Source: Natrinema pellirubrum DSM 15624 (lineage in GTDB: Archaea; Halobacteriota; Halobacteria; Halobacteriales; Natrialbaceae). From it: a DNA stretch of 64,000 nucleotides. Within the stretch, counting starts at the first letter, position 1, and the number at the start of each line of letters is the position of its first letter. This document shows, piece by piece, positions 22,392-27,254 of this stretch. Under the pieces are notes generated by a model. The model did no database searches, was not told where the DNA came from, and was given only the letters and a program-made list of their open reading frames with translations. Location: assembly GCF_000230735.2 (NCBI RefSeq), contig NC_019962.1, forward strand, positions 992,001-1,056,000. The letters run 5' to 3'. The position numbers and the translations under genes are program-made.

Positions 22392-23054
22392 ATGAGCGCC
22401 GTTTCGTCTTCGACCGAGCAATCCCTCGCGTCCGTGGTCGTCGTCGACTACGGACTCGGGAACCTCCGCAGTGTCACCCGCGGGTTGGAACGTGCGGGTG
22501 CCGACGTCGAGATCACCGACGATCCGGCCGCATTCGAGGCGGCCGACGGGGTGGTCCTGCCTGGTGTCGGCGCGTTCCGCGAAGGTGTCGAGAACGCCGA
22601 CCCGCTCCGCGAGGATCTCCTCGCAGTCGCCGAGCGCGGGACCCCCCTCTTCGGCATCTGCCTTGGGATGCAGATGCTGCTGACCTCGAGTGAGGAGGGC
22701 GAGACCGACGGCGAGTCGGCCGTCCAGGGACTGGATCTGATCCCCGGGACCAACGTTCGCTTCGACGAGGGTCAGAAGGTCCCCCACATGGGCTGGAACG
22801 AACTCTCGGTCGAGCGCGATCACCCGCTCGTCGAGGGGGTAGACGGCCAGTACGCCTACTTCGTTCACTCCTACTACGCGGCTCCCGACGACGAAGCGGC
22901 GACGGTCGCGACGACCGACTACGAACGCGAGTTCCCCTCGATCGTCGCGAACGAGGCAGGGAACGTCTTCGGCACGCAGTTCCACCCGGAGAAGAGCGGC
23001 GAGACGGGGCTGCAGATCCTGCGGAACTTCGTAGAGATTTGTGCCGACGAGTAA
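22392..23054 (+). CDS. hisH: Imidazole glycerol phosphate synthase, glutamine amidotransferase subunit
   Basis: HisH hydrolyses glutamine and channels ammonia to HisF, which forms imidazole glycerol phosphate for histidine synthesis. The 220-residue class I amidotransferase has nucleophile Cys90 in FGICLGMQML and the catalytic pair His198 and Glu200 in QFHPEKSG, with the oxyanion PGVGAF loop upstream. hisF is not adjacent, so the his genes are dispersed in this genome. Its 3' end is partly repeated 176 nt downstream (see the remnant at 23177-23253). Confidence 0.95.
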   Translation: MSAVSSSTEQSLASVVVVDYGLGNLRSVTRGLERAGADVEITDDPAAFEAADGVVLPGVGAFREGVENADPLREDLLAVAERGTPLFGICLGMQMLLTSSEEGETDGESAVQGLDLIPGTNVRFDEGQKVPHMGWNELSVERDHPLVEGVDGQYAYFVHSYYAAPDDEAATVATTDYEREFPSIVANEAGNVFGTQFHPEKSGETGLQILRNFVEICADE

Positions 23055-23176
23055 GGCGAGCGCGAGCGACCATCGGGAGTGAGCGGGTTTTGATCCGGAT
23101 TTTTGCGTGATCGGTGAGAGAGCGACGCGGCCGAACTCGAGCGGAAAAAGGTAGCGCGCGAGACGGGGTGGCGTGC

Positions 23177-23253
23177 GAGACGGGGCTGCAGATCCTGCAA
23201 TCTTGTGGAGATTTATCCTGCGGGACCTCGCGGAGGTCTGCGCCGGCGAGTCG
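23177..23253 (+). pseudogene. Remnant duplicate of the hisH 3' end
   Basis: Positions 23177-23198 are identical over 22 nt to hisH 23001-23022 (codons for ETGLQIL). The match then decays, and a second resemblance to the hisH tail appears at 23218-23253, which reads LRDLAEVCAGES against LRNFVEICADE in hisH. It has no start codon and no hisH-like stop at the equivalent place, so it is non-coding debris. It lies between hisH and the replication origin. Confidence 0.55.
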
Positions 23254-23388: not shown

Positions 23389-23412
23389 ACACACCCCGCG
23401 TTGCCGCTGTAT
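23389..23412 (-). repeat. Inverted ORB-like element (left arm of origin)
   Basis: Read on the minus strand this is ATACAGCGGCA followed by ACGCGGGGTGTGT. All 24 bases match the first plus-strand element at 23862-23885, forming a perfect inverted repeat with 449 bp between the arms. It is the only element of this family left of the AT-rich patch. Confidence 0.8.
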
Positions 23413-23504
23413 CAGCCGCGACGTTTTGCCTCTCCGGAGGGCCCCCCTTGAATTTCGGTTCACGGATCGCTGTAGGACTGCTAGACAGTAGATGCGTTAC
23501 CGAC

Positions 23505-23596
23505 GGTTACCAAACAGAATAACCAACAATATATACTAGTGCTGTGTGACCGTCCATTGAGTGAATTGGCTACAGTAGCGTCCAATGGCGATTGGA
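23505..23596. other. AT-rich patch (candidate duplex unwinding element) and small palindrome
   Basis: Positions 23505-23546 form the most AT-rich stretch of the origin, with runs such as accaacaatatatacta, whereas flanking DNA is GC-rich. At 23581-23596 a palindrome TCCAAT-ggcg-ATTGGA follows. The placement between oppositely oriented ORB elements is where unwinding is expected in archaeal origins; the role is inferred from position. Confidence 0.55.
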
Positions 23597-23632
23597 CATG
23601 GGTTCGTCGCTCGAGACGAAACTCCCCGTCGC

Positions 23633-23719
23633 TTTTGGCTGTCATCGGCTCCTTTTCGGCTATTATCGGTGTCACTTTCGGCTACCATCGGTGCCGATTT
23701 CGGCTATCATCGGTACGGT
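23633..23719 (+). repeat. Four tandem 21-22-bp iterons inside the origin
   Basis: Head-to-tail units start at 23633, 23654, 23676 and 23698, and a partial fifth (tttcggcc) starts at 23719. The shared core is tttYggctNtYatcgg with small changes, for example tttcggctattatcgg, tttcggctaccatcgg and tttcggctatcatcgg. The period is 21, 22, 22 and 21 bp, two helical turns, so repeated binding on one face of the DNA is possible. They do not resemble the ORB elements. Confidence 0.75.
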
Positions 23720-23860
23720 TTCGGCCGAGTCGTTCGGTCTCCGTCGGGGTCACTGCGTGCCGGTACGAGTTCTGTCCACGGTGCCACGCTGTCTATCGGT
23801 CAGCCCGATCTGTGAGTCAACACCGGACCGCCACTTCGAGTCGACAGCCACCATCACAGC

Positions 23861-24296
23861 TATACAGCGGCAACGCGGGGTGTGTGTCCGCCGTATACAG
23901 CGGCACCGAGGGGTGAAAACCGACCGACTCACGCCTAATGGAAACTCTTTTTATCCGATACAGCGGAAGGACGGTATCCGTTCGGTTCCCCGGACCGAAC
24001 CCGAATCTACCGATAACGGTCGTCTGAGCCCACGGATACCACTGGCGGCTCATCGCCGTTCGGTTCGCTTCTGTCGGCGGAACCGCCATGCTATACAGCG
24101 GCAGTCCGGGGTTCCGATGGATCTCGGCCCCAGTCCGGTGGCAGTTCTCCGACGGCAGCCCAGCGCAATCGGCCCACGTATACAGCGGCACCGAGGGGTG
24201 GTTATTCACCTATACAGCGGCACTCTGGGGTGTGTGTTCGCAGAATTTAGCGACTCAAACCGCGGAACTCGAGGCATACAGCGGCAGTCCGGTTCC
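23861..24296 (+). repeat. Seven ORB-like origin recognition boxes, all in plus orientation
   Basis: Elements begin at 23861, 23894, 23957, 24092, 24179, 24211 and 24275. The core is tATACAGCGGCA, then four variable bases, then a G-string GGGGTG. Elements 1, 2, 5 and 6 have both parts. Element 4 ends GGGGTT. Elements 3 (gatacagcggaaggacgg) and 7 (catacagcggcagtccgg) lack the full G-string. Elements 2 and 5 are identical over 22 nt. All point toward orc1/cdc6. G-strings at ORB ends are a known halophile feature. Confidence 0.85.
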
Positions 24297-24337
24297 GAAC
24301 GGTTAAGTAGTCGACGCCGAAAGGAGCTGGCACCCGA

Positions 24338-25537
24338 ATGTCGGATTCGACGGACTACTTCGGCAGTGAGAACGAAATCTTTCGGAACAAGGAGCTGCTG
24401 CAGGTTTCACACCTCCCGGACGGCGATCGAATCATCGGCCGCGAGGACGAACTGACCAACCTCGCGAACGCGATCAAACCGGCGACTCGAGGAAACACGC
24501 CGAACAACGTCCTCGTGTACGGGAAGACAGGAACCGGGAAGTCACTGTGTTCGAAGTTCATCACGAATCAGGCGATCGAGCGCGCGGAGGGCAACGACGT
24601 CTCGATCGGCGTCGCGTACGTCGACTGCCTCCAGGAGTCGACGGAAACGCAGGCAGTGCAGTCCACGGGCCATCAACTCAACGACCAGTCCAAGACCGAC
24701 GTCTCGATTCCACACTCGGGACTGAGTACGGCCGAATACTACCGTCGCCTCTGGCACATCGTCGACACCTGCTACGACGTCGCCCTGATCATCTTAGACG
24801 AAGTCGACAAGATCGAGGACGACGACATCCTGATGCAACTCTCTCGAGCGGTCGAATCCGGCAAACTCACCGAGAGTACCGTCGGCGTTATCGGAATCTC
24901 GAACAAGGTCCGGTACAAGGACTCGCTGGACGAGCGCATCAAATCGAGCCTCTGTGAACGCGAGTACGTCTTCTCGCCGTACGATGCGACCCAGATCCGG
25001 GAAATCTTGCGCTCACGGTCCGACGCGTTTCACGAGGGCGTCCTCGAGGACGGCGTCGTTCCCCGCGTGGCAGCGCTCGCGGCCCGCGAACACGGTGACG
25101 CACGGAAGGCGATCGATATCCTCCGCTTTGCGGGTGAGATCGCCGAGGAGAACGCCCTCGAGACGGTCACTGAGGATTGCGTCGATCAGGCACACGAGCG
25201 CGAGGAAACCAGCCGACTGGCCGAGCTGATATCCAAAAGCCCCAGTCACGCGAAACTCGTCCTCGAGGCGATGGCGCTGTTGACCCAGCAAAAGGAGGGC
25301 GACGACGCGCCGGTGACGACCAACGAGGCGTACGACCTCTACAAACGTCTCTGCGATCGGGACGGCTCGGAACACCTGAAGCTCCGCCGGGTTCGCGATA
25401 TCCTCTCGGAACTCGAGTTCCTCTCGATCATCGATCAGGAGCGCAAGTGGGCCGGAAAGGGGAAAGGCAACTACATGGAGAATCGGCTGATCGATGATCC
25501 CGAGGTCATCATCGCCGCCTGTAACGAGTCCGAGTAG
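24338..25537 (+). CDS. orc1: Orc1/Cdc6 replication initiator
   Basis: A 399-residue AAA+ initiator that binds ORB elements and opens the origin. Walker A is GKTGTGKS at residues 62-69, Walker B IILDEVDK at about 151-158, and sensor 1 lies in VGVIGISNKVRYKD. The DARKAIDILRFAGEIA block is the sensor 2 region. A C-terminal winged helix (about 305-395) contains the KLRRVRDILSELEFL DNA-binding helix. The ATG at 24338 is preceded by aaggagctgg and a TATA-like ggttaagtag at 24300-24309, so the promoter lies at the edge of the ORB array and initiator binding could autoregulate it. Haloarchaea carry several orc paralogues; this one is origin-linked. Confidence 0.95.
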   Translation: MSDSTDYFGSENEIFRNKELLQVSHLPDGDRIIGREDELTNLANAIKPATRGNTPNNVLVYGKTGTGKSLCSKFITNQAIERAEGNDVSIGVAYVDCLQESTETQAVQSTGHQLNDQSKTDVSIPHSGLSTAEYYRRLWHIVDTCYDVALIILDEVDKIEDDDILMQLSRAVESGKLTESTVGVIGISNKVRYKDSLDERIKSSLCEREYVFSPYDATQIREILRSRSDAFHEGVLEDGVVPRVAALAAREHGDARKAIDILRFAGEIAEENALETVTEDCVDQAHEREETSRLAELISKSPSHAKLVLEAMALLTQQKEGDDAPVTTNEAYDLYKRLCDRDGSEHLKLRRVRDILSELEFLSIIDQERKWAGKGKGNYMENRLIDDPEVIIAACNESE

Positions 25538-25660: not shown

Positions 25661-26017
25661 TCAGAGCAGTTCGCGGACCTCGGAGTACCACATATCGTGG
25701 TAGTCGACGTGGCCGACCCGGCGAGCGATGGCGACCGCAAGGGAGTGCCAGCACTTCTCGGTGGGGTCGTCGGCGTCTAAGTTGTACTCGCTGTCCTTGC
25801 AGGTACAGCCGCCGTCCTCGACGATATACTCGTCCTCGTAGCCGACGACGATGGTGAAATCCCGGTAGGACTTCACGCGGTTCTCGCCGACCGCCTCGAT
25901 GGCCCGGGCCCCGCGGTCGCCGTGGACTCGCGTGATCGCCCCGACGATCTCCGGCGTCAGCTCGCCGGCCTCCTCGAGACTCGCCTGCCATCGCTCGACG
26001 GGATTGGCCTCCGACAC
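25661..26017 (-). CDS. SWIM zinc-finger protein
   Basis: A 118-residue protein whose C-terminal half has the SWIM metal motif: CTCK, a 14-residue insert, then CWH, giving the CxC...CxH ligand set. SWIM domains bind DNA or mediate protein contacts, for example with recombinases. The N-terminal helix region is [20 protein letters not shown]. The start is taken as GTG at 26017, because a TATA-like ATTTTACAG on the same strand at 26037-26047 would make it leaderless. It is divergent from trm1. Confidence 0.82.
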
Positions 26018-26138
26018 GTCCGTGACTGTGCGCCGAACTGTAAAATCGGTTTGGTTGTCCGCCGCCGGCCCGCCGTCTCCCCATCGGCCGCCGGCGGGAG
26101 ACCACACCGCTTTTCGCCCGCTACCCACGAGACGTGGT

Positions 26139-27254
26139 ATGCGCGTCACCGAGGGCGGGGTCGAACTCGAGGTCCCCGGCGAGCAGACCGAGGGCATCGA
26201 GGAGGCGGTCTTCTACAACCCGCGACAGGAGCTGAACCGGGACTTGACGATCGCGACGCTGCGGGCCTACCGCGAGCGCGAGGATCGCGCCGAGACGTAT
26301 CTCGACGCGATGACCGCAAGCGGCGTCCGCGGAGTTCGAGCCGCGGCCGACGGCTGGGACGTGACCTGCTGTGACGTCGACGAGGAAGCGGTTTCCCTCG
26401 CCCGGGACAACCTCGAGCGAAACGACTGCGAGGGGCGGGTCGAACACCGCAACGTCAACGCGCTGATGCACGAGGAGCCGTTCGACGTGATCGATCTGGA
26501 TCCCTACGGGACGCCGATGCCGTTTGCCGACGCCGCGTTCGCGAACTGCCGGGATCTGGTCTGTGTCACCGCGACCGATACCGCGCCGATGTGTGGCGCA
26601 CACTTCAACAGCGGCGTGCGTTCCTACTCCGCGATCCCCCGTAACACCGACTATCACGCGGAGATGGGCGTCCGGACCCTCATGTCGGCGCTGGCCCGCA
26701 GCGCGGCCCGGTTCGACGTCGGCGTCGAACCGCTGCTTACCCACGCGACCAGCCACTACGTCCGGACCTACCTCGAGCTGACCCACAAAGCCACCGCGGC
26801 CGACGCCGCGATCGACGAGTTAGGCCACCTCTATCACTGCGAAGACTGCCTCTACCGCGAGGCCGACCCCGGGCTGATCGCCGACCCGCTCGAGCGCTGT
26901 CCCCACTGCGACGGGAACCGCGTCCTCGCGGCCGGCCCGGTCTGGCTCGGCCCCGTGCAGGACTCGTCGTTCATCGGGGCGGTTCGCGACGAGATCCCCT
27001 ACACGTTCGATACCGCGCCCGAGGCCCGGGAACTCTGTGACACGCTCGCGGCGGAACTCGACACGCCGACCCACTACGATCAGCACAAACTCTGTCGGAA
27101 CTGGGGGCTGCCGGCCAACGCGATGGACGAGTTCCTCGCCGACCTGCGCGAGGCGGGCCACGCCGCTTCCCGGGCCCACTACGGCGGGACGACGTTCAAA
27201 ACCGACGCGACCGTCGGTGAGATCAGGGCGGCGACGGAAGGGAACCTCGACTGA
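26139..27254 (+). CDS. trm1: tRNA (guanine26-N2)-dimethyltransferase
   Basis: It uses SAM to form N2,N2-dimethylguanosine at position 26 of tRNA. The 371-residue protein shows the SAM site region [16 protein letters not shown], the catalytic IDLDPYGTP motif, the [20 protein letters not shown] block and a zinc-binding set, [10 protein letters not shown] with CPHCDGNR. Length and order match archaeal Trm1. The ATG at 26139 follows a TATA-like cgcttttcg near 26108-26116; the longer upstream frame overlaps the SWIM gene and is rejected. Confidence 0.95.

Follow-up and report, generated by a model that had tools for sequence, protein, structure and literature searches.

Organization of the orc1/cdc6 locus

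The window, that is, the whole 64,000-nt stretch of DNA analysed here, corresponds to positions 992001-1056000 of a 3.79-Mb contig in a 4.35-Mb genome that is 99.9% complete. Within it, an orc1/cdc6 gene is preceded by a group of short repeated boxes and, further upstream, by hisH (Table 1). Orc1 carries the Walker A (GKTGTGKS, residue 62) and Walker B (LDEVD, residue 153) motifs and a winged helix with a GKGKG wing, and its closest solved structure is Cdc6-1 of S. solfataricus (2qby_A, E 6e-65). By the orc1 gene, the nearest named relative is Natrinema thermotolerans, whose Orc1 is 100% identical. Above the family cut-off, the genome contains about 16 orc/cdc6 matches, many of them with their own box type in the flanks. 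The downstream neighbour of orc1 gave no NCBIfam match. Immediately after hisH lies a partial duplicate of its 3′ end, a small pseudogene-like tail (24 identical nt at 22999-23022 and 23175-23198; 37 nt at 78% at 23016-23052 and 23215-23251).

Table 1. Features of the predicted origin and its flanks (window coordinates).
Feature	Position	Strand	Remarks
hisH	22392-23054	+	upstream neighbour; conserved synteny partner
Distal ORB, sole minus box	23389-23412	-	core toward gap, G-string outward; extended GGGGTGTGTC tail
AT-rich stretch, probable unwinding region	23448-23547		57% AT over 100 bp vs 33% in the window
Conserved origin core element	23522-23622	+	begins ~110 bp inside the minus box
Core: TATATA	23530-23535	+	
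Core: GTCCATTGAGTG	23552-23563	+	
Core: hairpin-forming repeats	23564-23610	+	
Three 22-bp imperfect tandem repeats (TTTCGGCTATYATCGGT..)	23654-23719	+	between core element and first plus box
Plus ORB 1	23862-23885	+	inverted partner of minus box; extended GGGGTGTG tail
Plus ORB 2	23895-23915	+	box core + GGGGTG
Plus box 3	23958-23974	+	core without G-string (GGTATCC)
Plus ORB 4	24093-24113	+	GGGGTT
Plus ORB 5	24180-24200	+	-158 from orc1 start; -157/-158 fixed in most relatives
Plus ORB 6	24212-24235	+	-126 from orc1 start; -125/-126 fixed in most relatives
Promoter-proximal box	24276-24292	+	-62; core only, TTCCGAACGG in place of G-string
Probable orc1 BRE/TATA (CCGAACGG-TTAAGTA)	24293-24309	+	directly abuts -62 box; 46 promoters listed
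orc1/cdc6 initiator gene	24338-25537	+	399 aa, full length; TIGR02928 417.9 bits (cut-off 181.3)
Probable SWIM-type zinc-finger protein gene	25661-26197	-	downstream neighbour; named by inspection

The preliminary description had reported a 24-bp perfect inverted repeat and a strong asymmetry of one box against seven, and both were borne out. Exact ATACAGCGG occurs eight times within 23389-24292, between hisH and orc1/cdc6, once on the minus strand (23404-23412) and seven times on the plus strand; 23389-23412 is the exact reverse complement of 23862-23885, with 449 bp between the arms, which can be extended to 27 nt at 96%. With at most one mismatch allowed, the whole window has 23 matches to ATACAGCGG, compared with an expectation of 7.6; all of 100 shuffles gave fewer. 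The G-string GGGGTG, which had been ascribed to the boxes in general, occurs in the minus box and the plus boxes at 23862, 23895, 24180 and 24212, but it reads GGGGTT at 24093, and the boxes at 23958 (GGTATC) and 24276 (GGTTCC) have no G-string; its absence from the gene-proximal box is conserved in relatives. A genome search with ACAGCGGMANNNNGGGGT gave six exact matches in 4.35 Mb, all within this array, as the preliminary description had expected. Two near-perfect isolated boxes (G000:C1:778361-778380 and G000:C1:219809-219828), which are not listed near any orc gene, may be chance occurrences or distant Orc1 sites. Mobile copies of the array were also sought in viral contigs, where 84 single exact matches and no stretch with two were found.

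Conservation of the array in relatives

Relatives were drawn from 149 genomes plus named genome contigs, and 47 distinct upstream sequences were compared. All of them keep the distal reversed box 0.5-1.4 kb upstream of orc1 (47/47); 46 loci have one minus box and the remaining one has three, and the number of plus boxes ranges from 4 to 19. Positions -62, -125/-126 and -157/-158 are nearly fixed, and plus-box spacings peak at 32 and 63 bp, or three and six turns of the helix (R 0.62 at 10.5 bp). Since related loci are not independent, p-values given here are rough. The gene order hisH - origin - orc1 - SWIM - trm1 is conserved in most loci with at least 90% Orc1 identity; loci with 81-88% Orc1 are sited elsewhere, some on plasmids such as pNVE414. 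On a Natrarchaeobius chitinivorans contig (L108) the array is strongly expanded, with 19 plus boxes from ~870 to 60 bp upstream of orc1, many in ~34-bp steps.

The last box abuts a CGAAC-TTTAAG-like motif in nearly all relatives, probably the BRE/TATA from which orc1 is transcribed; judged by the usual form of haloarchaeal promoters, 24293-24309 is the probable counterpart in the window. Among 45 relatives, 43 carry the extension GGGGTGTG after the core of the minus box and 43 after that of the first plus box; of the middle boxes 25/257 have it and of the last boxes 0/45, and GGGG occurs in the last box of 4/45 relatives. In 41/45 the inverted boxes enclose the AT-richest 60-mer of the origin. 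Because both G-strings of Haloarcula hispanica oriC1 are essential for autonomous replication (PMC3936714), the extended gap-flanking boxes are, by analogy, the likely firing sites.

Linkage of box type and Orc1

At least two exact TACAGCGGMANNNNGGGGTG boxes were present in 50/50 genomes with an Orc1 at least 60% identical and in 3/99 of the others (149 in total). As for the three exceptions, one has an ortholog overlooked by the first search (G052), one has an Orc1 of 48-52% identity (G096), and one has a contig ending ~400 bp past the boxes (G039). Plasmids of five other genera (Haladaptatus, Halorussus, Halobellus, Haloarcula and Halorubrum) encode Orc1 proteins of 61-65% identity together with TTTACAGCGGCAAC..GGGGTG boxes, and a TTTACATCGGCA box was found on one Natrinema plasmid. 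The clade with 57% identical Orc1 has TTTCACCGGAAAC..GGTGTG boxes and a GGSAEG wing, against GKGKG in the window Orc1, and the wing of the winged helix is a candidate specificity determinant.

A different sequence class had been proposed for the box. Comparison of the window box (TACAGCGGCAAC..GGGGTG) with those of other origins in the genome (TTTACTGGAAAC..GGGGTG, TTTCACCGGAAAC..GGTGTG and CCACTCGAAAC..GGGGTG) revealed a common ORB grammar, and a close box, TAACAGCGGAAACAGTGGGGTGGGGGGGT, has been published for Haloquadratum walsbyi and Halorubrum lacusprofundi (PMC3528665). The proposal was therefore dropped: judged by its letters, the box counts as a variant of the ORB (CAGYGGMAAC with G-string) and represents no new recognition class.

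The family is missing from about half of the same-family genomes, which implies that cells can do without this origin and that it may be dormant. Where present, the array, the core element described below and Orc1 (80-100% identical) are retained together, in ~45/91 same-family genomes, which argues that the module is under selection there. Relic boxes without orc1 were found at the hisH-SWIM-trm1 locus of two Natrinema genomes. One (G018, L236 2389-2512) has three boxes at spacings of 32 and 64 bp, the array stopping at the expected distance, and the other (G002, L235 1421-1442) has a single box; other genomes lack both boxes and orc1. Such relics are the scars expected on loss of an initiator/origin pair, and they reveal how haloarchaea lose origins. 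In Natronoglomus mannanivorans the orthologous Orc1 (G052 L273 2004-2989 / L118) is without residues ~167-231, and the boxes persist.

A conserved core element between the inverted boxes

Alignment from the minus box exposed a conserved stretch composed of a TAAATAC tract, CTGTGTNA, GTCCATTGAGTG and TTGRACG repeats of alternating orientation, which in the window includes the perfect hairpin GTCCAAT-GGCG-ATTGGAC (23580-23597). A sequence-only model of this core scored 71.5 bits in the window and also found six orthologous loci outside the training set. The second-best match in the genome, and the sole other one at E < 0.001, was C1:1230169-1230249 (22.1 bits, E 4e-4), which lies between the inverted boxes of the paralogous origin with 57% identical Orc1, whose boxes differ; a short pattern search of the genome returned the same two loci as its best. 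The stringent pattern TATAN{12,20}AAAGTCCAYTRAGT was found at 20 distinct places in 391 haloarchaeal genomes, most of them in the 57% clade and excluding the window core (ACCGTCC where the pattern needs AAAGTCC), and the reversed pattern gave one match. Nineteen of the 20 places adjoin an orc gene, and the remaining one is at a contig end. The looser pattern TAWA-N15..21-GTCCAYTRAG alone showed no enrichment over the reversed control (12 places versus about as many), and 3/12 places were beside orc genes. No description of the core was found in the literature searched, which took in the main text of PMC3528665.

Perfect stems of at least 6 bp with loops of 3-6 nt follow the motif in 26/42 family loci, compared with 2/42 in a control placed 100 bp further on and 4% of shuffles. 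Among related clades, 13/14 loci have a perfect stem of at least 6 bp whose distance hardly varies, and its sequences include several unrelated ones. Three half-sites covary within the window family (covariation 0.31 versus 0.20-0.22 in shuffles, 0/500) and two alternative stems are equally supported, so the core repeats may also be a site for a dimeric protein. Distances from the minus box to the core cluster at 109, 119, 130, 141 and 151.5, in phase at 10.5 bp (R 0.72, 11 collapsed clusters, rough p about 0.003); no helical phase was found from the core to the first plus box. This phasing points to an action of the single minus box on the core from a fixed helix face, which would explain why only one such box is retained. 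The phasing is no general rule, as it was not significant in the 57% clade (R 0.31).

Discussion

The preliminary description had predicted an ORB-array origin beside orc1/cdc6, and this prediction was supported by the adjacent TIGR02928 gene, by the linkage of boxes and Orc1 in 50/50 genomes and by the uniqueness of the cluster in the genome. An intact orc1/cdc6 gene adjoins the boxes, at least two inverted ORBs with G-string are present, an AT-rich stretch lies between them, and the ORB sequence is tied to the Orc1 family. The locus is a predicted ORB-type origin laid out as in known archaeal origins, an AT-rich stretch being framed by boxes for its own Orc1, and we predict that it is a chromosomal replication origin of a second type in this haloarchaeon. 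A chromosomal Orc1/ORB origin paired with its own initiator is, with high probability, the best explanation of the locus.

In the mechanism that we propose, the Orc1 encoded at 24338-25537 would bind the boxes. The two outer boxes with extended G-strings (23389-23412 and 23862-23885) are inverted, with their cores inward and the AT-rich stretch between them, as in the canonical archaeal oriC1, and Orc1 bound there would melt that stretch and the origin would fire in vivo. The core element, with its TATA tract, GTCCATTGAGTG and hairpin repeats, would be the focus of melting or of helicase loading. The remaining plus boxes, spaced mostly by 32 and 63 bp in relatives, would form an auxiliary array tuning Orc1 occupancy. 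As the last box abuts the probable BRE/TATA of orc1, autoregulation is suggested, the -62 box without G-string letting Orc1 limit its own transcription. Distinguishing gap-flanking, middle and promoter boxes sets candidate firing sites apart from candidate regulatory sites.

That boxes reach the orc1 BRE/TATA at the fixed positions -62, -125/-126 and -157/-158 would also suit an array acting mainly as a transcriptional operator of orc1, with no origin at all. Such an operator is very improbable, since an inverted box stands 0.5-1.4 kb upstream in 47/47 loci together with an AT-rich gap, and the core element recurs beside further orc genes whose boxes differ. A dormant or relic origin, in which the sequence and the initiator are kept without wild-type firing, as a backup or Orc1-titrating site, is a possibility to be taken seriously, if on the unlikely side. 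It would account for the patchy presence and the scars of loss, and the locus has no clear GC-skew switch: skew changes from -0.005 to +0.016 over 20 kb; 14% of nearby positions show a change at least as large, and the sign is the reverse of that seen at oriC1. There are precedents, too, in the dormant origins shown in Haloferax mediterranei (PMC4595724) and in the titrating ORB-rich region beside oriC2 of Haloarcula hispanica (PMC3936714). The joint retention of array, core and Orc1 in about half of the same-family genomes speaks against dormancy, as it indicates selection where the module is present.

For the core itself, the chances appear about even that haloarchaeal origins with different Orc1s and ORBs share an undescribed, ORB-independent element that marks initiation, either as a hairpin in melted DNA or as a short origin RNA; as part of the same reading, and held with equal reserve, the shared signal would be a TATA tract, 12-20 bp, AAAGTCCAYTRAGT and a hairpin of varying sequence. 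A rival reading takes 23522-23622 not for a melting site but for a promoter driving a short untranslated RNA, which bears a 5′ hairpin and serves to prime initiation or to regulate it. In its favour are a TATA-like tract 15-20 bp ahead of GTCCAYTRAG (TATA centre to CCA ~22-24 nt), a hairpin at a fixed distance whose sequence varies while the stem is kept, and compensatory changes in the stems. This promoter is nevertheless doubtful, as its TATA has no preceding BRE-like CGAA, unlike the orc1 promoter, and the spacer itself is conserved (CTGTGTNA). In addition, RNAalifold gave no single consensus fold for the core, with two alternative stems covarying equally well, and an Rfam search of the core gave sub-threshold matches only and none above the gathering score.

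Little is known of what, apart from the initiator boxes, steers initiation inside an archaeal origin. A short core kept while Orc1 and boxes diverge offers a direct mutational target, namely the TATA tract, GTCCATTGAG and the hairpin stem. An ortholog of the window origin appears to sit on the Haloterrigena turkmenica chromosome. If this placement is right, the window-type origin itself was probably already predicted by Wu et al. (2012), who predicted seven chromosomal origins in H. turkmenica (PMC3528665).

The predicted origin of the window is distinct from oriC1 of the same genome, which lies at the ends of contig C1 and has CCACTCGAAACGAAGGGGTGGGGGG boxes. Assignment of the locus as oriC1, the ancestral archaeal origin, was rejected because its initiator is not orthologous to the oriC1 Orc1 and it has no TCCA..GAAAC boxes. 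The ARS data of Natrinema J7 were likewise set aside as a test of this origin, since the ARS-2 primer (plasmid with eight ORBs) maps to oriC1. Another observation concerns pFJ2, a J7 plasmid with which no transformants were obtained: its start lies at oriC1, the best conserved of the origins (PMC5350488 Table 3, primer PARS-2; G000:C1:3790345).

As described in PMC3528665, haloarchaeal origins adjacent to orc/cdc6 genes likewise lie upstream of the gene, have inverted G-string ORBs around an AT-rich gap and carry an ORB sequence specific to the Orc1 family. The window differs from them in its box core (ACAGCGGCAAC), its one minus against seven plus boxes and its conserved promoter box without G-string, and in the core element, which the main text of that paper does not mention. 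Origin II of Hqr. walsbyi (HQ2959A) and of Hrr. lacusprofundi (Hla_3512) has boxes that share ACAGCGG plus G-string with the window; according to the same paper, two box types stand there beside one orc gene, compared with one type in the window. In Haloarcula hispanica oriC1, too, inverted G-string ORBs flank an AT-rich gap, with an inverted repeat inside the ORBs, but its repeat is G-rich and acts as an enhancer (PMC3936714), whereas that of the window is not G-rich and follows TATA-GTCCATTGAG; unlike that oriC1, moreover, the window has an Orc1 just 38% identical to the oriC1 initiator of its own genome. The many extra ORBs of the window recall those of H. hispanica oriC2-cdc6E, proposed there to titrate Cdc6, although the extra ORB-rich region lies downstream of cdc6E in H. 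hispanica (PMC3936714) and upstream of orc1 in the window.
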